From Phycisphaera sp. (lineage in GTDB: Bacteria; Planctomycetota; Phycisphaerae; Phycisphaerales; Zrk34), in the NCBI GenBank assembly GCA_016125285.1, contig WGMA01000062.1, forward strand, positions 1 to 64,000: a DNA stretch of 64,000 nucleotides. The letters run 5' to 3'. The notes under the pieces were generated by a model, which saw only the letters and a list, made by a program, of their open reading frames with translations, was not told where the DNA came from and ran no database searches. This document shows positions 42,269 to 63,391 of the stretch, piece after piece (the stretch's first letter is position 1; the number at the start of each line of letters is the position of its first letter). A program made the translations under genes and the position numbers.

Positions 42269-42796
42269 ATGAGCTTCACCCCGAACCAGCAGGATTTCGC
42301 CGCCAGGCTCACAGCCTGTCAGAGCCGCCTGTTCGCCTACATCACGGCGATGGTTCCGGACCGCAATCAGGCCCACGACATCCTCCAGCAGGCCAATCTC
42401 GCGATGCTCCGCAAGGCCGACGAGTACGACTCGTCGCGCGACTTCGTAGGGTGGGCGTGCAAGGTGGCGTATTTCGAGGTGCTGGCGTACCGGCGTGGCC
42501 GCGCCCGCGATCGTCACCGCTTCGACGAGCGATTCCTCGAGGTGATCTCGCGGGACGCCGAGAGCCGCGTCGCGAGCCACGATCGCCGCGGCGCCGCGCT
42601 GGCCGACTGCATGGGCAAGCTCAACGCCGGGCAGCGCGACCTGATCGATCAGCGTTACACGTCCGGTCGGTCGGTCGACGATCTGGCCAGCCACTTCAGC
42701 CGCACAACCGCCGCGATCTCGCAGATGCTCTACCGCATCCGTGCCGCGCTTGCCGAGTGTGTCCGCTCCACCCTGGCCGCGGAGGAACAGGCGTGA
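42269..42796 (+). CDS. ECF sigma factor (planctomycete/Verrucomicrobia FecR-linked type), copy 1
   Basis: 175 residues. Region 2 (about 10-85): FAYITAMVPDRNQAHDILQQ and FVGWACKVAYFEVLAYRRG, the latter the -10-reading part. Region 4 (about 115-170): LNAGQRDLIDQRYTSGRSVDDLA and a helix-turn-helix RTTAAISQMLYRIRAAL. About half the residues match the sigma factor at 46015-46530. The stop overlaps the FecR start (GTGA), so both are translated together and FecR is probably its regulator. Confidence 0.88.
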   Translation: MSFTPNQQDFAARLTACQSRLFAYITAMVPDRNQAHDILQQANLAMLRKADEYDSSRDFVGWACKVAYFEVLAYRRGRARDRHRFDERFLEVISRDAESRVASHDRRGAALADCMGKLNAGQRDLIDQRYTSGRSVDDLASHFSRTTAAISQMLYRIRAALAECVRSTLAAEEQA

Positions 42797-44241
42797 GCAA
42801 CGCATCGCGTCAACCCGATGACCTCGAGCTGCTGCTGAGCGGTCTGCTCGACGGCAGCCTCAGCGACGCCGACGAACGGCGGCTCATGGACCTCGTGATC
42901 GTCGACGCCGACGTCCGCGCCCGCTACCTCGACATCATGGACGTGCACGCGATGCTGACGTGGGAGCGGTCGTCGCAGTCGCAGGGCGACCTGCCGACGC
43001 CCGAAACGGACGTGATCGAAGCCGAGTCGATCCCCGTCGCCAAGCTTGCGCCCGCGTCGCCTCCCGGGTCGCTCGACCGCAACGCCGATCGTTATGTTCG
43101 TCCGTTGCGAATCCCCGGCTTCCGGCGTTACGCCGTGGCCGCTTCGCTGCTGCTGGCGATGGGCGTAACTTTCGCACTCGTCCGGCAGTCGCATCGCGAC
43201 ATGAAGAGCCGCGATGCTTCGCCCGCCGCGTATGACCCCGCCGTCGCCACGATCACGAACGTACACGGCGCCGAGTGGGACGCCGAGAACACGCTGACGG
43301 ACCTGGGCTCGACGCTGCCGACCGGTCGCCTCCGCCTCAGGTCCGGCTCGGCGGAACTGGTCATGCGGTCCACCGCCGCGATGACGCTGCTCGGACCGGC
43401 CGATGTCGAACTGATCGGCCCCAACCGTTGCCGCCTGACGAAGGGCCGCATCGTCGCCCAGGTGCCCGAGATGGCGCACGGGTTCACGGTGGAGACGCCC
43501 ACGTCGATCGTCACCGACCTCGGCACGCACTTCGGCGTCGAGGTCGACGAGACCGGCGCCGTCGAGGTGCACGTGTTTCGTGGCCTGGTGGTCGCTCGGG
43601 CGAACGGCGAGACGATGGCCAACGGCGTGCAGCTCGAAGAAGGCGACGCGTGGCGGCTGAGCCCCACCGCGAAGAGCGCCACGGCGGCTCGCACGGTGCC
43701 GGTCGATTACCGCCGATTCGGACTGGGCGTCCCGCGTGACCTGGTGACGTTCAACACCGGACGCCGAATCGCCGAGGGACAGGTCGACGCGAATTGGATG
43801 GTGCGTGAGCCGGGCGGTGTGGACGCCTCGCCGATCGTCGTCAGCCACACGGAGTGGATGCCGAACGATCCGGCGGCATCGCAGTGGCTCGCCGCCCGTG
43901 TCGCGCCGGGCGCCTCGCCCAGCATGCGGCTCATCTACACCACGCGATTCAATCTGTCGGGTCTCGATCCGTCGACGGGTCGACTGAAGATCCGCTTCGC
44001 GGTCGACAACCGCGTCGAGAGCGTCCGCCTCAACGGGCACACATTCACCCCGCCGTCGCATCCGCTGGAGTATCGCGAGCTGACGGCGTTCGAGATCGAT
44101 GAGGGATTCGTCGAGGGCGAAAACGTTCTGGAGTTCGAGGTCCTCAACGGCGAGGTGCAGGCGCCGGAGAACCCGATCGCCCTACGCGTGGAGTTGTCGG
44201 GCACCGCTCAGACGCTGGAAACGCAGGAGCAGAAGCAATGA
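42793..44241 (+). CDS. FecR-domain membrane protein, likely anti-sigma or signal partner, copy 1
   Basis: 482 residues starting at a GTG that overlaps the sigma stop. N-terminal cytoplasmic part (about 1-110) with LLLSGLLDGSLSDADERRLM, a pattern common in planctomycete FecR proteins; one membrane helix near 113-134 (YAVAASLLLAMGVTFALV); an outer FecR domain near 185-290 (LTKGRIVAQVPEMAHGFTVE, SIVTDLGTHFGVEVDE); and a C-terminal region of about 170 residues ending in a beta-rich carbohydrate-binding-like fold. It could carry an outside signal to the sigma factor. The next gene begins within its stop codon (ATGA). Confidence 0.82.
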   Translation: MSNASRQPDDLELLLSGLLDGSLSDADERRLMDLVIVDADVRARYLDIMDVHAMLTWERSSQSQGDLPTPETDVIEAESIPVAKLAPASPPGSLDRNADRYVRPLRIPGFRRYAVAASLLLAMGVTFALVRQSHRDMKSRDASPAAYDPAVATITNVHGAEWDAENTLTDLGSTLPTGRLRLRSGSAELVMRSTAAMTLLGPADVELIGPNRCRLTKGRIVAQVPEMAHGFTVETPTSIVTDLGTHFGVEVDETGAVEVHVFRGLVVARANGETMANGVQLEEGDAWRLSPTAKSATAARTVPVDYRRFGLGVPRDLVTFNTGRRIAEGQVDANWMVREPGGVDASPIVVSHTEWMPNDPAASQWLAARVAPGASPSMRLIYTTRFNLSGLDPSTGRLKIRFAVDNRVESVRLNGHTFTPPSHPLEYRELTAFEIDEGFVEGENVLEFEVLNGEVQAPENPIALRVELSGTAQTLETQEQKQ

Positions 44242-45062
44242 GTCACTCCGTCGGGGTCAATCGTATTCGGGGTTTCACGCGCGGATTCACGATCGTCGAA
44301 CTGATCGTGGTCATGACGATCATCGTGCTGATGATCGCGATCGTCATGCCCTCGATCAAGCAGGCGCACGACTCGGCCCAACGCGTCGTGTGCTCCGCCA
44401 AGCAGCACAACTGGGGCGTGGCGATCCTGGCCTACGCGTCGGACAACTACATGGCGTTCCCCGACAATTCGTCGCACCCCAGCGGCGCGTCGGTGCACGG
44501 CTACGGGTTCCACGTGAGCTGGAATTCGCGCCACGTGCAGGATTTCTGGCGGGACTACCTCTTTCCGCTGACGGTCGAGTCCAAGAAGACCGGCCAGCGC
44601 GACATGCTGTTCTGCCCCACCCAGCTCTATCACAACAAGCTCGACGACAACCTCGTCATCGGCACCGACGGCGATCTGTCCGGCGGCCTCGTCGGCTACT
44701 TCTACCTGCCGGGACGCACCTACAACGCCGACACCGACTACAGCGTCGCCGGGGACGGATGGGCGTTCCGCCAGAAGATCGGCACGGAGTTCTCGCAGGC
44801 GCCGATCCTGACCGACATGATGCAGTACCGCAACACGACGCAGTCCTGGTGGATGATCAATCAGCAGATCCCGTTCTCGAGCCACGTCGTGGACCGCTCC
44901 GGCATCCCCGCGGGCAGCAACATGCTGTTCGAAGACGGGCACACGGCCTGGGTGCAGAATACCAACGACGAGACCAACAAATCGCCCAACAGCATCGGCC
45001 TCGCCGGGCACGTCGGTGTAGAATGGAACTACTATTATAAGATCCCGCTGGGCGTGTACTGA
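44238..45062 (+). CDS. Prepilin-type protein with DG-type C-terminal motif, copy 1a
   Basis: 274 residues. A class III signal (R15-G16|F17-T-I-V-E21, Glu at +5) and hydrophobic helix IVVMTIIVLMIAIVMPS mark a type II secretion pseudopilin-like protein. The C-terminal NMLFEDGHTAW matches the H-X9-DG family motif end, though the His (SSH) lies 16 residues before DG rather than 9. Start overlaps the FecR stop by 4 bases. Confidence 0.85.
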   Translation: MSHSVGVNRIRGFTRGFTIVELIVVMTIIVLMIAIVMPSIKQAHDSAQRVVCSAKQHNWGVAILAYASDNYMAFPDNSSHPSGASVHGYGFHVSWNSRHVQDFWRDYLFPLTVESKKTGQRDMLFCPTQLYHNKLDDNLVIGTDGDLSGGLVGYFYLPGRTYNADTDYSVAGDGWAFRQKIGTEFSQAPILTDMMQYRNTTQSWWMINQQIPFSSHVVDRSGIPAGSNMLFEDGHTAWVQNTNDETNKSPNSIGLAGHVGVEWNYYYKIPLGVY

Positions 45063-45075
45063 TCGGAGCCTCGCC

Positions 45076-45867
45076 ATGCACACACAACCGTTGCTGCGCT
45101 TCCGCCGCGGGATCTCGCTGATCGAAATCCTGGTTGTCGTGTCGATCATCGCCGTGCTGTTGGCCATCCTGCTGCCGTCGCTGCAGAAGGCCAGCGAGGC
45201 GCAGGAGCGGACGCTCTGCGCCACCAACCTGCATCAGTGGGGCATCGGCGTGCGCGCCTACACGATCGATAACAGCAAGTTCTTCCCCTACAACGGCAAC
45301 GCCGTGACCATCAACAACTTCTGCCCCGTCGGCGGTGACGACACCAGTTGGTGCAGCACCGTCGTCCAGAAGTTCTGGGAGAACTACCTGAAGGTCAAGC
45401 TCGACGCGAACCTGATCAACTCGAACGCCAACAACGTGCTGTTCTGCCCCACCAACGAGTGGCACCCCTTCGCGATCAAGTCGTGGAACATCGCCTACAA
45501 CCGCGGCCTGATCGGGTACTGCTACCTGCCGTCGCGGAACACCGGATCGATGAACTACACGCTCGCCGGAGGCGACATCGACGGCGACGGCAGCCCCGAC
45601 GGTAACGGCTGGGTGGGCAAGCTCAAGATCGACGGCTTCAACTCCCGCGCCCCGATCATGATGGACCTCATCCAGGCCGACAGCGGCAACTGGTTCTACA
45701 ACCAGACCGTGCCCTACGCGAACCACCGTCGCGATACGGGCGAACCCTGGGGCGGCAATTTTCTCTTCGAGGACGGCCACACGTCGTGGTACGACTGGGC
45801 GGACATCGGCATCGGCGGCACCAACGGCGGCTGGGCTGTGTATTACGACGTCGCCATCAACCGCTGA
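45076..45867 (+). CDS. Prepilin-type protein, copy 1b
   Basis: 263 residues. Class III signal R11-G12|I13 with Glu17 at +5 (GISLIEILVV), then helix VVSIIAVLLAILLPSL. The C-terminal NFLFEDGHTSWYD resembles the previous protein's, again with a longer His-to-DG gap (NHRRDTGEPW precedes). GGAG lies 7 bases before the ATG. Last gene of the first cassette; a 147-bp gap with the second promoter-like element follows. Confidence 0.85.
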   Translation: MHTQPLLRFRRGISLIEILVVVSIIAVLLAILLPSLQKASEAQERTLCATNLHQWGIGVRAYTIDNSKFFPYNGNAVTINNFCPVGGDDTSWCSTVVQKFWENYLKVKLDANLINSNANNVLFCPTNEWHPFAIKSWNIAYNRGLIGYCYLPSRNTGSMNYTLAGGDIDGDGSPDGNGWVGKLKIDGFNSRAPIMMDLIQADSGNWFYNQTVPYANHRRDTGEPWGGNFLFEDGHTSWYDWADIGIGGTNGGWAVYYDVAINR

Positions 45868-46014: not shown

Positions 46015-46530
46015 ATGATCGAGCAGACCGACCAACAATTCGTCGCCGACCTGATCCAGGTGCAGCCGCGCCTGGTCGGCTACGTGCTGGCGATCGTGCC
46101 CGACCGCAACGCCGCGGCCGACATCGTGCAGGAAGCCAGCATGGTGATGTGGCAGAAGCGCGGCGAGTTCACGCCGGGCAGCAACTTCGGGGCGTGGGCC
46201 TGCACGGTCGCCCGCTACCAGGCCCTGGCGTACCGCCGCAACCGCATGCGTGACCGTCACCAGTTCAGCGACACGTTCGCCGAGAGCCTGGCCGACGAGG
46301 GCGTGTCCGCGGGCGACCAGATCCACGATCGCCGCCGCGCCCTGCGCGACTGCATGGCCAAGCTCCCCGCCGGTCAGCGCGACCTGCTCGACCGCCGCTA
46401 CAGCGACAACCAGTCCGTGACGGACATCGCCGAGACGCTCGGCCGCCCCGTCAGCTCGCTCTACCAGACGCTGCACCGCATCCGCGCCGTGCTGATGACG
46501 TGTGTCCGCCAGACCCTCGCCGAAGCATGA
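46015..46530 (+). CDS. ECF sigma factor, copy 2
   Basis: 171 residues from the ATG at 46015 (a GTG at 45967 is possible but adds a segment the paralogue lacks). Region 2: VGYVLAIVPDRNAAADIVQEA and FGAWACTVARYQALAYRRN; region 4: LPAGQRDLLDRRYSDNQSVTDIA and a helix-turn-helix RPVSSLYQTLHRIRAV. Clear paralogue of copy 1. The stop overlaps the FecR ATG (ATGA). Confidence 0.88.
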   Translation: MIEQTDQQFVADLIQVQPRLVGYVLAIVPDRNAAADIVQEASMVMWQKRGEFTPGSNFGAWACTVARYQALAYRRNRMRDRHQFSDTFAESLADEGVSAGDQIHDRRRALRDCMAKLPAGQRDLLDRRYSDNQSVTDIAETLGRPVSSLYQTLHRIRAVLMTCVRQTLAEA

Positions 46531-47957
46531 ACACGCCGCCCGACCAACCCGATCACCCCGAGCTCATCGAACTGCTCACGCGGCTCGTCGACGGCGAGTT
46601 CAGCGACGGCGATGCGCAACGTCTCGAAGGGATCCTGCAAGACCGCCCCGACCTGCGGGCGTACTACATCGAATACATCAACACCTGGGCGATGCTCGAC
46701 GCCGAACTCGCGCCCAAGCCCGTGGCGCTGACGCCGCCAACCGCGATCGAGATGACGGACGAGGCGTCGCCCGCGCACGAATCACACGCTACACCGCGGC
46801 GGACCTTTTCCGTCTGGTCGCGTCGTGTGGCCATCGCCGCCGCCCTGCTCATCGTCGCGTCCATCGGGATCACGCTCCTTGTGCGTCACAGCGCCCGGCA
46901 GGTCGACGCGCCGTCCGTCGACGTTGCCACGCCCAACCGCCCCGCCGCGATGCTCGCCTATGCGGAAGACGCCCGGTGGGCGCCGGACGCCGCACCGGAA
47001 GAGACCGGAGAGTTTCAGAGCAACGATCTCCACCTGCGCTCCGGCTCGGCGCAGATCATGACCGGCAGCGGAGCGGTCGTCACGCTGCAGGGCGAGACCG
47101 ACTACCACGTCACCGACGAGATGCACGGTCGGCTGGATCGCGGACGCGTGACCGTCTACGTCCCGCCGCGAGCGCACGGGTTCACCGTGGACGCCGGGTC
47201 GGCGCGGATCGTCGACCTCGGGACCGAGTTCGCCGTCGAGCTCGATGCGAACGGCGACACGCAGGTGCACGTGATGCGCGGACACGTGGAGGTGCGGACA
47301 CCCAACGCGTCCAGGCCGGTCACGCTGGAAGCTCAGCAGGCGATCCGCGTGGTCGGCGTCGGCAACGGATCAACCACGATTCCCTTTGCGCCGCAGCAGT
47401 ACACCGGCTGGACGAGCAAGGACGAGACGGTCGCAGCGACCGACGGCGCCGTCGAACTGTTGCCCTACTCGCCCAGAACCGGCCGACAAGTCGGCATGGT
47501 GACCGGTAGCCACATCTACCTTGTGCCGGAAGCGGTGGACCCGAAAGCTACGCTGGGCCAGATCGCGGCGCTGCGGGCGCCGGGCGCCTATGCACGATTC
47601 GACAACATGAAGACGCGAGGCTTGGGCAACGCGAGCGGCCTGCGTTCGTACCTGCTGCACTTTCAGCCCGGCGACGGCGCCGACCGGCTCACGCCGGCGA
47701 ACGGATCGGTCACATTCGATCGCCCGATCCTCGCGGTGATTGTCGACGGCGCCTCGCTCGACGCGACGGACGCGGCGATCTCGCAGACGCCGATCGCGGT
47801 ACGAGCCAACTTCCCCGGGCGCGGCCTCGAGTCGCCGCCGGACGGAAACGCCGACCGTGTCACGATCAGCAACGACCGCCGCACGCTCACCGTCTCGCTC
47901 CGCGCAAACGGCATGGACCAGCTGCGCGTGATCCTCGCCGATCAGCCGGAAAACTGA
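46527..47957 (+). CDS. FecR-domain membrane protein, copy 2
   Basis: 476 residues. Start: PDHPELIELLTRLVDGEFSDG, same N-terminal pattern as copy 1; membrane helix near 101-122 (VAIAAALLIVASIGITLLV); FecR domain near 170-275 (LDRGRVTVYVPPRAHGFTVD, RIVDLGTEFAVELDANG); and a C-terminal beta-rich part of about 190 residues with LPYSPRTGRQVGM. Overlaps the sigma gene by 4 bases. It is probably the partner of sigma copy 2. The C-terminal domain differs from copy 1, so the two may sense different things. Confidence 0.82.
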   Translation: MNTPPDQPDHPELIELLTRLVDGEFSDGDAQRLEGILQDRPDLRAYYIEYINTWAMLDAELAPKPVALTPPTAIEMTDEASPAHESHATPRRTFSVWSRRVAIAAALLIVASIGITLLVRHSARQVDAPSVDVATPNRPAAMLAYAEDARWAPDAAPEETGEFQSNDLHLRSGSAQIMTGSGAVVTLQGETDYHVTDEMHGRLDRGRVTVYVPPRAHGFTVDAGSARIVDLGTEFAVELDANGDTQVHVMRGHVEVRTPNASRPVTLEAQQAIRVVGVGNGSTTIPFAPQQYTGWTSKDETVAATDGAVELLPYSPRTGRQVGMVTGSHIYLVPEAVDPKATLGQIAALRAPGAYARFDNMKTRGLGNASGLRSYLLHFQPGDGADRLTPANGSVTFDRPILAVIVDGASLDATDAAISQTPIAVRANFPGRGLESPPDGNADRVTISNDRRTLTVSLRANGMDQLRVILADQPEN

Positions 47958-47979
47958 CTCATCCATCGGGAGCCTCCGC

Positions 47980-48828
47980 ATGCCTCAGCCACGTCACAAC
48001 ACGCGTGCATTCACCATCGTCGAACTGCTCGTCGTGATGTCCATCATCGTGCTGCTGCTGGCGCTGCTGCTTCCCTCCGCCCGGCGGGCACGCTACGTCG
48101 CGAAGTTCGCCACCTGCGCCAGCCAGCAGCGACAGATCGGTGTCGGCGTGATGATCTACACCAACGACTACATGACGCAGTACCCGTACCGCAAGGTCGC
48201 GTTCGGATCCAACCCGCGGCACAGCAAGCTGGCGTTCAACGCCAAGAGCGGCGGCCCCGACGATCGACCGATGCTCCGCAGGTACCTCGACATCAACTTC
48301 ATGGTCTGCCCGTTCAGCCCGCTCGAAGGCGTGCAGAGCCTCGACGACTCCGACCACATCGACATCCACTCCAGCTACGAGATGTACTTCGGCGGTCCGA
48401 TCGTGCGCGGCGACGCCGAGACGTGGAACATGAAGATCTCTGACCACCCGCTCCTGCCCGACCTCGATACGTCCGGCGGCTACTGGCAGAAGCAGCGCTA
48501 CGAGCACAAGATCCTCCTCGCGGACATGGACTGGGCCTACTTCGCCATCCACCAGCAGCAGACGTCGCACCCGGACTTCTACACCGGCCTGCTTCAGTTC
48601 GAGCACCGCGATCACCACCTGGCGTCGCAGGTCACCACGCACCACACGATGACCATGTGGTGGAATCCGGTCTACGAGCGCGGGGCGATCGACCGCAACT
48701 TTCTCTACAAGGACGGCTCCGTGCAGCCGATCTACAACCTCGATATGAACGACGCACGCCTCGTGCGCATCCCCGCCATGAACAACAACTGGACCTCCGC
48801 ACAGTATCACTTCCTGCCGCGAGGCTGA
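47980..48828 (+). CDS. Prepilin-type protein, copy 2
   Basis: 282 residues. Class III signal RA10|F11-T-I-V-E15, helix LLVVMSIIVLLLALLLPS. The residue before the cut is Ala instead of the usual Gly. The C-terminal part has NFLYKDGSVQPIYN, a variant of the DG motif. GGGAG is 8 bases upstream of the ATG. Only one prepilin-like gene is present in this second cassette; a strong terminator follows. Confidence 0.85.
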   Translation: MPQPRHNTRAFTIVELLVVMSIIVLLLALLLPSARRARYVAKFATCASQQRQIGVGVMIYTNDYMTQYPYRKVAFGSNPRHSKLAFNAKSGGPDDRPMLRRYLDINFMVCPFSPLEGVQSLDDSDHIDIHSSYEMYFGGPIVRGDAETWNMKISDHPLLPDLDTSGGYWQKQRYEHKILLADMDWAYFAIHQQQTSHPDFYTGLLQFEHRDHHLASQVTTHHTMTMWWNPVYERGAIDRNFLYKDGSVQPIYNLDMNDARLVRIPAMNNNWTSAQYHFLPRG

Positions 48829-58226: not shown

Positions 58227-58499
58227 ATGGCCAAGGCCGTTGTCGAACCCGAAGAACTCCGTCGATTCGCGCGCGACCTGAGCCGGTTCAATTCCGAGAT
58301 TCAGAACCTCACATCCGCGATGACCCGCCGCCTCAACGACCTCGAGAAGTCCTGGCGTGACCAGGAACAGAAGAAGTTCGCCGAGGAGTTCAAGCAGACC
58401 GCCCGCGTGCTCTCGAAGTTCACCGAGGCGTCGAATCAGCACATCCAGTTCCTCGGCCGCAAGGCGTCGCACATCGAGGAGTACCTGCGGCAGCGCTGA
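58227..58499 (+). CDS. WXG100-like small helical protein A
   Basis: 90 residues, almost entirely helical, no signal peptide. Two helices are joined near the middle by S42-W43-R-D45, with Trp at the position it has in WXG100 (ESAT-6-like) proteins; the WXG turn is here WRD. Downstream follow F51-A-E53-E-F55, a pattern repeated in the 72-residue protein at 59174. GGAGG is 8 bases before the ATG. First gene of the locus leading to the FtsK/SpoIIIE ATPase; such ATPases export WXG100 proteins in type VII systems. Confidence 0.75.
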   Translation: MAKAVVEPEELRRFARDLSRFNSEIQNLTSAMTRRLNDLEKSWRDQEQKKFAEEFKQTARVLSKFTEASNQHIQFLGRKASHIEEYLRQR

Positions 58500-58535
58500 G
58501 CCCGACACCCGCCCCACCGTCAACCGAGACCACCG

Positions 58536-59177
58536 ATGGCCGACCCCGCCCGAGTCCATTCGATCGACGCCCTCCGCGACTTCAAGGTCGCGTTGATCAA
58601 GTTCGCCGAAGAGGTGCGCGAGGCGCTGGTCGACGCGGACGCCGACATGCTCAAGGCCAAGCAGTGGATCGACGGCGAGGTGAAGTCCGGGTGGTCGCGG
58701 AACCTCCAGAAGTCGAAGGAGCAGGTCACCGCGGCAAAGGCGGCGGTGCAACGCAAGCAGGTGTATGCCGCGTCGAAGGAAACCGCGCCGTCCTGCGTCG
58801 ACGAGCAGAAGGCGCTGGCGATGGCGAAGAAGCGCGTCGAGAAGTCCGAGGAGAAGCTGCGGAACGTCAGCCGCTGGTCGCGCGGGCTGGAGAAGGAAGT
58901 GCAGATGTGCCGCAGCCAGAGCCAGACGCTGGCGCAGACGGTCGACGTGGAGATCCCCAAGGCGGTGGCGCTGCTCGATCGGCTGATGGAGCGTCTGCAG
59001 GAATACCTCGACGAAGCCGCGGTCGAGACGCGTGCATCCAAGATGGCGCAGTACTGGCGGAACACGGTCCTCGATCCCGACGAGTTCGATCCCGAGACCG
59101 ACACGCCGTTCAAGGACCGCGAAGACGAGTCCGCAAAGGGCGCGGCGGGCGACGACGACAAGGGGGCGGACCGATGA
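58536..59177 (+). CDS. Coiled-coil protein of the WXG/FtsK-like locus
   Basis: 213 residues, no signal peptide or membrane helix. Helices 1-70 include LKAKQWIDGEVKSGWSRNLQ with two Trp; a long charged coiled coil runs from about 70 to 160 (AMAKKRVEKSEEKLRNVSRW, LMERLQEYLDEAAVE), and an acidic tail (DPDEFDPETDTPFKDREDE) closes it. The stop overlaps the next ATG (ATGA). I know no named family; by position it could be a longer substrate, chaperone or adaptor for the ATPase. Confidence 0.7.
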   Translation: MADPARVHSIDALRDFKVALIKFAEEVREALVDADADMLKAKQWIDGEVKSGWSRNLQKSKEQVTAAKAAVQRKQVYAASKETAPSCVDEQKALAMAKKRVEKSEEKLRNVSRWSRGLEKEVQMCRSQSQTLAQTVDVEIPKAVALLDRLMERLQEYLDEAAVETRASKMAQYWRNTVLDPDEFDPETDTPFKDREDESAKGAAGDDDKGADR

Positions 59178-59392
59178 GCATGAGCACGAGCAAGGCGCGG
59201 ATCATGCACGCGTTCAAGGAGCTGACCGTGGCGTGGGCCGAGACGAAGGAGCAGTGGAACGACTCGGCCTCGGCGCGTTTCCAGGAGCGGTTTCTCGATC
59301 CCATCGAGACGCGCGTCCGCTCGACGGTGGGCGCGATGGAGCTGATGGAAGAGGTGTTCTCGAAGGTCAAACGCGACTGCGGGCCGGAGTAG
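59174..59392 (+). CDS. WXG100-like small helical protein B
   Basis: 72 residues; the ATG overlaps the stop of the coiled-coil gene. Helix 1 (SKARIMHAFKELTVAWAETK), then W28-N-D30 and F36-Q-E38-R-F40, then helix 2 (ETRVRSTVGAMELMEEVF). The Trp, Asp, Phe, Glu and Phe have exactly the spacing found in protein A (W43, D45, F51, E53, F55). Ends 36 bp before the ATPase gene. Confidence 0.7.
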   Translation: MSMSTSKARIMHAFKELTVAWAETKEQWNDSASARFQERFLDPIETRVRSTVGAMELMEEVFSKVKRDCGPE

Positions 59393-59428
59393 GGCCCGTC
59401 GCGGATTCACAGGCAGCAGGCGACACGC

Positions 59429-62400
59429 GTGACTGAACCCCAGCGACTCCAATCCGATCGACACTTCCAGGCGCTCGAGCAGCTCGTGCGTCTGGCGGGT
59501 CGCTGCGCCGAGGCCGAGCGTCAGGTCGAGGCATGGCGGAACCAGGCCGAGGTGCACGTCGAGCACCACTTCGAGAAGGCCGAGCTGGAGCTGATGTCGC
59601 GGCACGCGCAGGCTCGGGCGGTGGTGGATCGCGAACTCGCGGTCCAGACCGAGAAGGCGCAGCAGGATTACGAAGCGGCGGTCGAGGCGGCGCAGGATCG
59701 GCTCGAGCGTCAGCTCTCGGCCAACGAGCAACGTACGGAGCAGGCGCAGCGGTCGGCGAAGGAGGAACTCGACGAGATCCTCTGGGAGGCCGACAGCATC
59801 TACGAAGGCGCCAAGGAGCGTCTGCGTCGGTTCCTCGACGACCTGCAACGCGGGCACACGACGCAATTCAAGGCGCTGGAACAGCTGAAGGACGATGCGC
59901 GTTCGACGATCATGCGCTACAAGGTGTCGCCTCCGGCGCCCGCGGCCGAAGCGGAGATGCTGGCCCGGTTCCCCGCGCCAGCGCCGCCGGAGCCGGGCGT
60001 CGACGCCGCGACGTTGCTGCAACGCTACGCCGACGAGATGCAGTACCACCTCGGGCGGCTGCGCAACCTGTCGCTGCCCGCGCTGTTCGTCGGGCCGAAC
60101 CCGTGGCTGACGGTGTCGTTCGTCGTGGGTGTCTCGCTGGTGGCCACGGGACTGACGAAGGGCTGGACGCCCAGCGCTTGGCTCGTCGGCGTCCCGGCCG
60201 GGGCGTGCGCGGCGACGCTGCTGTTCGGGTGGATCCTCAAGGGCATCTCGCGACGGGGCATCTACAAGGCGTACCTGCCGATCTGCGCCGCGCTCGAAGC
60301 GGCGCGGTCCACCGTGCGGATCGGGCCGGAGCAGGCCGAGCGAGCGTGGAACGAACGCGTGGCGTTGATCCAGCGGCAGCGTGACGCATCGGTCGCGGCG
60401 GCGCATGAGAAGTACGACCCGCTGATCCGTGAGGCCGAGGCTAACAAGTCCGATCGTTACACGCAGATGCGTGATCAGCACACCAACCGCCTGTCGAGCG
60501 AGGAGCAGAAGCGAGAGGATGTGCTCGCGGAGATCAAGGCCGAGCGGCTCAAACGTTACGACGAGCTGAAGGCGACGCATGACGCCCAGCTCGCCGAGCT
60601 CAAGGCCGAACACGATCGCCAGACGAGCGACGTCAAGCAGCAGTACGCGCAGCGATGGGAGGAACTCGAGGCGGAGTGGAAGGAAGGCGTCGCCGAGCAC
60701 TACAGCGTGATCCGCGCCGCGTCGCAGCGGGCCGACGAGCTGTTCCCCGCGTGGAGCGATCCGCGGTGGAACGCGTGGGAGCCGCCGAGCGACGCCGCGG
60801 AACTTGTGAGCGTCGGGCGGCTCGACGTCGACCTCACGCAGACGTCCGGCGGCGTGCCGACCAGCGAGCGCCTGCACGTCGACATGCCCACCGCGTTCAC
60901 CGTTCCCGTGACGCTCTCGCTGCCCGAACGCTGCAGCCTCACGCTCCGCGCCGGGCGCGAGGGACGCGACATCGCCAACGACATGCTCGCCACCGCGATG
61001 ACACGCCTGCTCACCGCCCTGCCGCCCGGTCAGGCGCACTTCACGATCATCGACCCCGTCGGCCTCGGCCAGAACTTCGCGGGGTTCATGCACCTGGCGG
61101 ACTACGAAGAGGCGCTCGTCGGCCCGCGCATCTGGACCGAGACGTCGCACATCGAGACGCGCCTGACCGACCTGACCGAGCACATGGAAAACGTGATCCA
61201 GAAGTACCTGCGCAACGAGTTCAACACGATCGACGAGTACAACGCGCAGGCGGGCGAGCTGGCCGAGCCGTACCGCTACCTGGTGATCGCGGACTTCCCG
61301 GTGAACTTCAACGACGAAGCGGTGCGCCGCCTGGCGAGCATCGTGCAGTCCGGCCCGCGCTGCGGCGTCTACACCCTCATGGCGATGGACACGCGGCAGC
61401 GCCTCGCGGGCGAGTTCGACGTGTCCGACTTCGTGGGCAAGGGCCTCGACCTGGTCTACGACGGCGGGCGGTTCGCGTGGAACCACGACGTGTTCTCGCA
61501 GTTCCCGCTGAGCCTCGACGGTTCGCCGCCCGACGAGCTGCTGTCGAAGCTGCTCAAGAAGGTCGGTGACGGCGCCCGGCATTCGCGTGTCGTGGAAGTG
61601 CCGTTCGAACGCATCGCGCCCGACGATGAGCACATGTGGACCGGCGACTGCTCGAAGGAACTCCGCGTGCCCATCGGCCGCAGCGGCGCGACGCGCACGC
61701 AGGAACTGTCGTTCGGCAAGGGCGTCGCGCAGCACGCGCTGGTCGGCGGCAAGACCGGTTCGGGCAAGTCGACGCTGCTGCACGCCCTGGTGACCAACCT
61801 CGCGCTGTGGTACAGCCCGGATCAGGTCGAGTTCTACCTCGTCGACTTCAAGAAGGGCGTCGAGTTCAAGACGTACGCCATGCACGACATCCCGCACGCG
61901 CGGGCCGTGGCGATCGAGTCCGATCGCGAGTTCGGCCTGTCCGTCCTGCACCGCATCGATGCGGAGATGAACCGCCGCGGCGACCTGTTCCGCAAGCTCG
62001 GCGTGCAGGACATCAACGGCTACCGCCACGCCGCACCGGACAAGCCGCTGCCGCGCACGCTGCTGATCATCGACGAGTTCCAGGAGTTCTTCAGCGAGGA
62101 CGACAAGCTCGCGCAGGACTCGATGCTGCTGCTCGACCGCCTCGTGCGACAGGGCCGTGCGTTCGGCATCCACGTGCTGCTCGGCTCGCAGACCCTGGCC
62201 GGGACGTACTCGCTGTCGCGGTCGACGCTCGGGCAGATGGCGGTGCGCATCGCGCTGCAGTGCAGCGAGGCCGACGCCGAGCTGATCATGTCAGACGGCA
62301 ACTCCGCGGCGCGATTGCTCAACCGTCCCGGCGAGGCGATCTACAACGACTCCGGCGGCCTGGTCGAGGGCAACAGCCCGTTCCAGATCGCGTGGCTCCC

Positions 62401-63391
62401 CGACGAGCAGCGGACGAAGCTGCTGGAGAAGATCACCGACCGCGCCCGCGAGGAAGGCTACGTGCGGGTCGAGCCGCTGATCGTGTTCGAGGGCAACGTC
62501 CCGGCGGACATCACGAAGAACCGCCCGCTCAACGCGCTGCTCGACGGCGGGCAGCCCGCGTCGATCCCCGCGGCGCCGCAGGCGTGGCTCGGCGAGCCGA
62601 TCGCGATCAAGGCGCCGACCGGCGGCGTGCTGCGTCGACACGCGGCGGCCAACATGATGATCATCGGGCAACGCGACGAGGCTGCCCTCGCGATGACGGC
62701 CACCTCCATCGTCGGCCTCGCCGCGCAGCATCCCACGGACGGCGCGACGTTCTACATCCTCGACGGCTCGTCCGCGGACGCGCCCCACGCCGGTTACCTG
62801 CAGCACCTCGCCGACGCCCTGCCGCATCAGGCGCACGTCGTGCCGTACCGGCAGGTCGGCGAGGCGCTGGTGAACATCGCCGCCGCCATGCAGGACCGAC
62901 ACGACCGCGACGTGACCAACGCCCCGGCGATCTACCTGATCGTGTTCGGCCTGCAGCGCTACCGCGACCTGCGGCCCAGCGAGGACGATTTCGGCATGTC
63001 CACGTCGTTCAGCTCGTTCGACGACGACAAGGAAGCCGCCCCGCCGCCGCCGAAGGCCGACAAGCTGTTCGCCGAGATCCTCCGCGACGGCCCGCCGGTC
63101 GGCGTGCACACCATCGCGTGGTGCGACTCACCCACAACGCTCGAGCGCACCGTCAACCGCCAGGCGATGCGCGAATTCGACATGCGTGTGCTGTTCCAGA
63201 TGTCCGGCACCGACTCGGCCAACCTCGTCGACTCCCCCGTCGCCAGCAACCTCGGCATGCACCGCGCGATCTACTACAGCGAAGAAAAGGGCATCCTCGA
63301 GAAGTTCCGCCCGTACGCCCTGCCGCCGCAGTCGTGGATCGACCACGTGGGCAAGGTGCTGACGAACCGGCCGACGATGAAACCGGCGTAG
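59429..63391 (+). CDS. FtsK/SpoIIIE-type ATPase with coiled coils and two membrane helices
   Basis: 1320 residues from a GTG. Order: coiled coil about 10-165 (EKAQQDYEAAVEAAQDRLER); two membrane helices about 228-271 (WLTVSFVVGVSLVATGL, WLVGVPAGACAATLLFGWIL); second coiled coil about 290-435; then three ATPase-like modules. Module 1 (about 490-700) has no Walker A (LRAGREGRDIAND in its place). Module 2 (about 740-1010) has Walker A G773-G-K-T-G-S-G-K-S781, YLVDFKKGVEFKTYA and Walker B LLIID882-E883. Module 3 (about 1040-1290) is degenerate (IIGQRDEAALA). The three-module plan recalls EccC/EssC of type VII secretion. The C-terminus ends in an Asp/Pro-rich insert and a final domain. Confidence 0.85.
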   Translation: MTEPQRLQSDRHFQALEQLVRLAGRCAEAERQVEAWRNQAEVHVEHHFEKAELELMSRHAQARAVVDRELAVQTEKAQQDYEAAVEAAQDRLERQLSANEQRTEQAQRSAKEELDEILWEADSIYEGAKERLRRFLDDLQRGHTTQFKALEQLKDDARSTIMRYKVSPPAPAAEAEMLARFPAPAPPEPGVDAATLLQRYADEMQYHLGRLRNLSLPALFVGPNPWLTVSFVVGVSLVATGLTKGWTPSAWLVGVPAGACAATLLFGWILKGISRRGIYKAYLPICAALEAARSTVRIGPEQAERAWNERVALIQRQRDASVAAAHEKYDPLIREAEANKSDRYTQMRDQHTNRLSSEEQKREDVLAEIKAERLKRYDELKATHDAQLAELKAEHDRQTSDVKQQYAQRWEELEAEWKEGVAEHYSVIRAASQRADELFPAWSDPRWNAWEPPSDAAELVSVGRLDVDLTQTSGGVPTSERLHVDMPTAFTVPVTLSLPERCSLTLRAGREGRDIANDMLATAMTRLLTALPPGQAHFTIIDPVGLGQNFAGFMHLADYEEALVGPRIWTETSHIETRLTDLTEHMENVIQKYLRNEFNTIDEYNAQAGELAEPYRYLVIADFPVNFNDEAVRRLASIVQSGPRCGVYTLMAMDTRQRLAGEFDVSDFVGKGLDLVYDGGRFAWNHDVFSQFPLSLDGSPPDELLSKLLKKVGDGARHSRVVEVPFERIAPDDEHMWTGDCSKELRVPIGRSGATRTQELSFGKGVAQHALVGGKTGSGKSTLLHALVTNLALWYSPDQVEFYLVDFKKGVEFKTYAMHDIPHARAVAIESDREFGLSVLHRIDAEMNRRGDLFRKLGVQDINGYRHAAPDKPLPRTLLIIDEFQEFFSEDDKLAQDSMLLLDRLVRQGRAFGIHVLLGSQTLAGTYSLSRSTLGQMAVRIALQCSEADAELIMSDGNSAARLLNRPGEAIYNDSGGLVEGNSPFQIAWLPDEQRTKLLEKITDRAREEGYVRVEPLIVFEGNVPADITKNRPLNALLDGGQPASIPAAPQAWLGEPIAIKAPTGGVLRRHAAANMMIIGQRDEAALAMTATSIVGLAAQHPTDGATFYILDGSSADAPHAGYLQHLADALPHQAHVVPYRQVGEALVNIAAAMQDRHDRDVTNAPAIYLIVFGLQRYRDLRPSEDDFGMSTSFSSFDDDKEAAPPPPKADKLFAEILRDGPPVGVHTIAWCDSPTTLERTVNRQAMREFDMRVLFQMSGTDSANLVDSPVASNLGMHRAIYYSEEKGILEKFRPYALPPQSWIDHVGKVLTNRPTMKPA

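Follow-up and report, generated by a model that had tools for sequence, protein, structure and literature searches.

A cassette of four same-strand genes in the planctomycete Phycisphaera sp. (assembly GCA_016125285.1, contig WGMA01000062.1, positions 58,227 to 63,391) encodes two small helical proteins of the WXG100 family, a long helical hairpin protein and a large membrane-anchored FtsK-superfamily ATPase. Judging from the anatomy of these products, we propose with moderate confidence that the cassette is a stand-alone, four-part, type-VII-like protein export module. The stretch of DNA that we analysed, referred to here as the window, comprises the first 64,000 bases of the 104,952-base contig, within an assembly of 6.09 Mb that is 97% complete. 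Type VII secretion is commonly taught as a trait of Gram-positive bacteria and mycobacteria that requires many membrane parts. The kind of system to which the cassette belongs is already known, if barely studied, and the planctomycete set is a new form of it.

All four genes lie on the forward strand: protein 1 (58,227-58,499; 90 residues), protein 2 (58,536-59,177; 213 residues), protein 3 (59,174-59,392; 72 residues) and protein 4, the ATPase (59,429-63,391; 1320 residues, GTG start). The gaps between them are 36, -4 and 36 bases, with the start of protein 3 overlapping the stop of protein 2 through an ATGA. An initial annotation of this DNA had reported the same lengths, positions, strand and overlap, all of which were reproduced by a check of the open reading frames; moreover, exactly these four genes were chosen when the whole window was searched with a gene finder based on codon usage. 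In every one of the 76 orthologous loci that hold all four genes, the order is 1-2-3-4 on one strand, so that the conservation of gene order across Planctomycetota, which the annotation had put forward as a check, was borne out. Chance or mis-called reading frames are ruled out by the gene finder together with this conserved order.

Judged by its profile, protein 1 is a member of the WXG100 family despite carrying W-x-D in place of W-x-G. It scores 41.9 bits against Pfam PF06013 (cut-off 27.3), in agreement with the earlier description of the small proteins as WXG100-like, and is a helical hairpin with W43-R-D45 at the turn; W-x-D, not W-x-G, occupies this position in 77 of 77 family members. 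A profile built from 44 orthologues found Helicobacter pylori HP0062 as its best match in the PDB (3fx7, 3e-12), followed by EsxB and EsxA structures. The crystal structure of HP0062 is a helical hairpin that turns at W-R-D, and an FtsK/SpoIIIE gene lies in the cluster that encodes it (PMC3397514).

Protein 3, searched alone, matched no Pfam family. Our confidence is moderate to good that it is a second WXG100 protein of reduced length (W28-N-D30), because of a family hidden Markov model (HMM), a profile-profile alignment, its PDB matches and the presence of W-x-D in 87 of 87 family members. An HMM made from protein 3 sequences only recognised all 77 protein 1 orthologues, with a median score of 17.7 and a lowest of 8.8 bits; shuffled protein 1 sequences reached at most 8.7 bits, below every real protein 1. 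When the two families were aligned with hhalign, their W-x-D turns were superposed (probability 82%), and the plausible PDB matches of the protein 3 profile were the WXG100 proteins 4lws and EsxA 2vs0 (E 0.01-0.02). The annotation had stated that EsxAB pairs were absent from the visible part, which was wrong in substance, since with protein 3 as a WXG100-family member such a pair is present.

The ATPase begins with a coiled-coil region (residues ~1-200, 59,429-60,028; the boundaries, taken from sequence and alignment, are approximate), followed by a transmembrane hairpin predicted from hydropathy (residues ~222-275, 60,092-60,253), in which 93 of 95 orthologues have 35 or more hydrophobic residues. 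A second coiled coil lies between this hairpin and three modules with the FtsK fold. The three-module plan claimed in the initial annotation is thus correct, but the P-loop is found in the middle module only. Module 1 (60,965-61,423) is a weak FtsK-profile match without GxxxxGK[ST], and in the alignment it is among the most conserved parts of the protein (DPVGLGQ-FAGFMHL-D, VIQKYLRN and AEP-R). Module 2 (61,631-62,383), the predicted catalytic module, matches PF01580 and has a Walker A motif (GKTGSGKST, with Lys780 as the Walker A lysine) and a Walker B motif (LLIIDEFQE) that are invariant or almost so across 23 orthologues; it matches the first ATPase module of EccC best. Module 3 (62,516-63,358) scores 92 bits with the FtsK profile and again lacks GxxxxGK[ST], a motif confined to module 2 in all 14 planctomycete ATPases examined.

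The best solved relatives of the ATPase, by sequence as well as by fold, are EccC and EssC. Its best PDB sequence match is the EccC structure 4nh0 (2.5e-37), and Foldseek returned EccC at 6.5e-29, EssC at 1.7e-17 and FtsK at 1.4e-11. However, its motor domain belongs to a separate clade. In a motor-domain tree, 14 planctomycete and five plasmid ATPases form one clade (support 97/98), the first modules of EccC and EssC form another (98/96), and FtsK groups with TcpA-like and Dnd-linked ATPases (96/91); the root of this tree is not known, several of its branches are long and the sister pair among the three clades is undecided. The plasmid ATPases belong to WXG100 modules of Caballeronia, Helicobacter, Rhodococcus and Deinococcus. 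The equivalog models for EccCa, EccCb and EssC gave 101-127 bits against cut-offs of 347-778 (for EccCa, TIGR03924, 126.9 bits against 509). These data support regarding the ATPase as a relative of EccC/EssC and not as an EccC or EssC itself. The EccC/EssC-like character proposed earlier therefore stands for the nearest solved relatives but not for the motor domain, which groups neither with EccC/EssC nor within the FtsK/TcpA clade. A plain FtsK or conjugation ATPase is ruled out by tree and fold, and the source genome has a separate, ordinary FtsK. Membership in the type VII secretion systems of type a or type b (T7SSa, T7SSb) is likewise ruled out by the sub-cut-off equivalog scores, the missing accessory parts discussed below and the position in the tree. 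Matches of the ATPase in a library of defence proteins (SspH, mad8) were taken to reflect a shared superfamily only.

The AlphaFold2 model of protein 2 (pLDDT 87) is a single long hairpin of two helices, residues 10-78 and 88-178. The hairpin has conserved tryptophans, and it is followed by a predicted disordered, acidic tail that is variable and modelled with low confidence. The copy in the window matches no Pfam family over cut-off, and a known fold was rejected, as Foldseek gave no match below 1e-3 and generic coiled coils only. Among 84 orthologues, 19 exceed 300 residues; eight of these long forms were scanned, and all eight match a C-terminal Imm33-like domain (PF24719), seven of them over cut-off. 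We observed this domain in the long protein 2 genes of loci L036, L040, L043, L060, L061, L062 and L107, though the cassette is without a toxin. A further observation concerns a tail motif, [SGT][MV]xR (like SM[AR]R), which follows the hairpin in 29 of the 84 orthologues, mostly at residues 173-198, compared with an average of 5.6 of 84 in shuffled tails; as the window copy is without it, we gave the motif no weight.

A scan of GTDB genomes returned at least 564 relatives, of which the best 80 are nearly all from Planctomycetota (Phycisphaerae to Pirellulales, Gemmatales and Isosphaeraceae), together with one Lentisphaerae record. The latter, Lentisphaerae bacterium RIFOXYA12_64_32 (locus L131), has a complete cassette whose ATPase groups inside the planctomycetes, so that transfer or mislabelling is possible. 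A long orthologue was present in 25 of 60 relatives, and carriers of the cassette include the culturable Singulisphaera acidiphila, Limnoglobus roseus and Planctomycetales bacterium 10988. We also surveyed 394 Planctomycetota genomes, scoring proteins 1, 2 and the ATPase and following protein 3 in the retrieved loci. Protein 1 and the ATPase were each found in 115 genomes and both in 114 (~29%), while protein 2 was found in 116, exactly the union of the protein 1 and ATPase carriers. The WXG100, hairpin and ATPase genes thus occur together in 114 genomes and are all missing in 278. Protein 2 is present in one copy in 115 genomes and in two copies in a single genome, which also has two copies of the ATPase.

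This co-occurrence is not due to linkage alone, since it is kept in genomes whose genes are scattered. Gene 1 adjoins the ATPase gene in 81 of the 114 genomes, lies far from it on the same contig in 10 and is on a different contig in 23; in a 6.8-Mb genome assembled as a single contig (G134), the WXG100, hairpin and ATPase genes occupy three distant sites. In three genomes of family f60 in which gene 1 is away from the ATPase (loci L167, L171 and L172), a gene of 290-313 codons precedes gene 1 each time. Families cluster in the ATPase tree (7 changes versus 15.9 in shuffles), which argues against free mobility. The cassette is almost always single copy, with a patchy distribution and flanks that vary between genomes; no conserved flanking genes were evident in the neighbourhoods seen, except for partial sharing of gene order among near relatives. 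The patchy distribution must have involved losses or some transfer.

The plasmid relatives show what the corresponding genes look like in a mobile setting. Against the planctomycete ATPase profile the five plasmid ATPases score 260-605 bits, and the WXG100 proteins of Caballeronia, Helicobacter and Rhodococcus score 47-81 bits against the protein 1 profile. On the Caballeronia plasmid, the order is a WXG100 gene (89 residues), a 436-residue coiled-coil protein with a further C-terminal domain, proteins of 113 and 76 residues and the ATPase, and the set lies beside a TerY-P triad of VWA, PP2C and kinase genes. On the plasmid of a cat Helicobacter (locus L153, 9408-13810), a WXG100 gene is followed by genes for a 340-residue helical protein that has a WHH/colicin-DNase domain, for a member of the SUKH family, for a protein of 77 residues and for the ATPase. 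Because of the WHH/colicin-DNase protein, the middle slot is a toxin slot at least in Helicobacter. Taken by itself, this row of genes is a compact set of toxin, immunity and export motor on a Gram-negative plasmid. A Rhodococcus plasmid has the set in a different order, adjoining TerD. With the planctomycete protein 2 profile, the middle proteins of Rhodococcus, Caballeronia and Deinococcus scored above all shuffles, which for Rhodococcus and Caballeronia were heptad-preserving. Kinship with the N terminus of the Helicobacter nuclease protein was rejected, its profile score being no better than those of shuffles. On the plasmids of Deinococcus (L154, 11519-11947) and Rhodococcus pseudokoreensis (L155, 14178-14789), the gene beside that of the ATPase encodes a small helical protein whose membrane helix is C-terminal, as if the membrane anchor of the ATPase were encoded there by a separate gene.

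In EccC and EssC systems, a hexameric ATPase recognises pairs of WXG100 proteins and pulls them through the membrane. By analogy, the membrane hairpin of the planctomycete ATPase may anchor a hexameric assembly at the inner membrane, and proteins 1 and 3 may form a four-helix bundle with each other, like those of Esx proteins and HP0062. The degenerate C-terminal module of the ATPase would then recognise this pair. Protein 2 would serve as a carrier or adaptor by binding either to this pair or to the coiled coils of the ATPase; it appears to take the place of a helical protein that, in a mobile relative, is fused to a nuclease-type toxin. ATP hydrolysis by module 2 would then move the hairpin complex across the inner membrane. 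Such a model is consistent with an ATPase that has one active module and a membrane hairpin, and with the presence of two W-x-D proteins.

Several results weigh against export. The tree places the motor domain outside the EccC/EssC clade. EccB, EssB/YukC and YukD, components of type VII systems of demonstrated function, gave no match over cut-off anywhere in the genome (97% complete), while EccE, EssA, EsaA and mycosin were not searched for; the earlier remark that other usual type VII parts are absent from the visible part thus extends, for EccB, EssB and YukD, to the entire assembly, but it does not apply to the WXG100 pair. The source genome yielded neither another WXG100 protein over cut-off nor an effector fused to a hairpin, so an obvious cargo is lacking. 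Finally, we know of no outer-membrane partner for the cassette. Given their strict co-conservation, we lean towards regarding the WXG100 proteins and protein 2 as parts of the machine rather than its cargo.

The four products could instead constitute a non-secretory conflict or stress machine of the membrane or cytoplasm, in which the coiled-coil and WXG100 proteins stay within the cell and are remodelled or positioned there by the ATPase. We consider this rather unlikely, although close relatives do lie within TerY-P and CoCoNuT stress and defence clusters and no outer-membrane part is known to us. The relatives described in eLife in 2024 have ATPases without membrane helices, for which the authors regard a mechanism different from that of EssC as likely (PMC11090510), whereas 93 of the 95 orthologues of the planctomycete ATPase do have a membrane hairpin. 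The genomic setting also speaks against a conflict role, as the flanks vary by genome, the cassette is nearly always single copy and the ATPase tree clusters by family. A housekeeping translocator of planctomycetes, linked to the envelope or to DNA and using borrowed WXG100 folds, would explain the wide, mostly single-copy distribution and the choice of an FtsK-superfamily ATPase. It is, however, quite improbable: only 29% of the sampled genomes carry the set, which is thus not essential for the phylum, and the genome has a separate, ordinary FtsK from whose clade the cassette motor domain is excluded.

Toxin delivery, with protein 2 as an effector whose variable C terminus (acidic tail or Imm33-like domain) acts on rivals, also seems improbable to us, if marginally less so than a housekeeping role. 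A conserved hairpin with a variable C terminus is the layout of a type VII substrate, the equivalent gene of the Helicobacter plasmid encodes a WHH nuclease, and the middle proteins of Rhodococcus and Caballeronia match the protein 2 profile above all heptad-preserving shuffles. However, protein 2 has no recognised toxin domain and the cassette no immunity gene, only a single type of extra domain is seen in protein 2, extra copies hardly occur, and for the middle protein of Helicobacter the profile gives no match.

Returning to export, the mobile toxin-export modules look to have a resident relative in planctomycetes, either a descendant or a cousin, which carries no toxin. A bolder proposal, possible but doubtful, is that of a vertically inherited, toxin-free export machine of four products, resident in diderm bacteria, in which passage would occur by way of the ATPase hairpin and the W-x-D hairpins and which would serve the cell's own physiology, not warfare. 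A strictly co-conserved set of four genes in ~29% of the sampled Planctomycetota is a small system suited to the question of how few parts WXG100 export needs, and it can show how a toxin-export module might change from mobile to resident. Elsewhere in the window, we observed two similar tandem modules (42269-45867 and 46015-48828), each with a sigma-factor-like gene, a gene of ~480 codons and prepilin-like genes.

The cassette shares with the FtsK/SpoIIIE DNA translocases the motor fold of a common superfamily, and differs from them in the separate clade of its ATPase, its three modules, its WXG100 partners and the presence of another FtsK in the same genome. In combining WXG100 proteins with a multi-module FtsK-superfamily ATPase whose fold matches EccC and EssC, it resembles T7SSb (EssC, EsxA, EssB, YukD) and T7SSa (EccBCDE, EsxAB), but it has one active module, W-x-D for W-x-G, no EccB, EssB or YukD, and an ATPase outside the EccC/EssC clade. 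It is also like the H. pylori HP0062 system, since protein 1 finds its best solved match in HP0062 and has the same W-R-D turn, and since HP0062 is encoded in a cluster with an FtsK/SpoIIIE gene. Compared with the related ATPase of the Helicobacter plasmid (823 residues), however, the planctomycete ATPase has an extra coiled-coil and membrane part.

Another close likeness is to the mobile modules of WXG100 proteins and YueA-like ATPases, which also have three FtsK domains with the middle one alone active and whose plasmid examples fall in the same motor clade. Planctomycetes were listed by Zhang et al. (2012; Table 1 footnote) among lineages with a solo WXG protein and a YueA-like ATPase in which the middle domain alone is active (PMC3482391); the planctomycete cassette differs from this description in having two WXG100-family genes. 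Modules associated with TerY-P are attributed to Anantharaman et al. (2012) in a passage of PMC4978471, and the CoCoNuT type III-A extension (2024) has a coiled-coil nuclease and two proteins of the WXG100 family alongside an ATPase that lacks membrane helices; for this module the authors predict secretion by a mechanism likely different from that of EssC (PMC11090510). Our literature search found no paper on the planctomycete cassette itself, although much subscription literature lay outside its reach. Unlike the mobile modules, the planctomycete form has a membrane hairpin in its ATPase and a second WXG100 protein that keeps W-x-D; its middle gene encodes a fixed hairpin protein without a nuclease or toxin domain, and no immunity gene is present. 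Neighbours of the TerY-P or CoCoNuT kind are absent from the window, and the cassette looks resident. What is new is the anatomy of the cassette, its strict co-conservation, the second WXG100 protein and the presence of a fixed hairpin protein in the position at which a mobile relative has a toxin.
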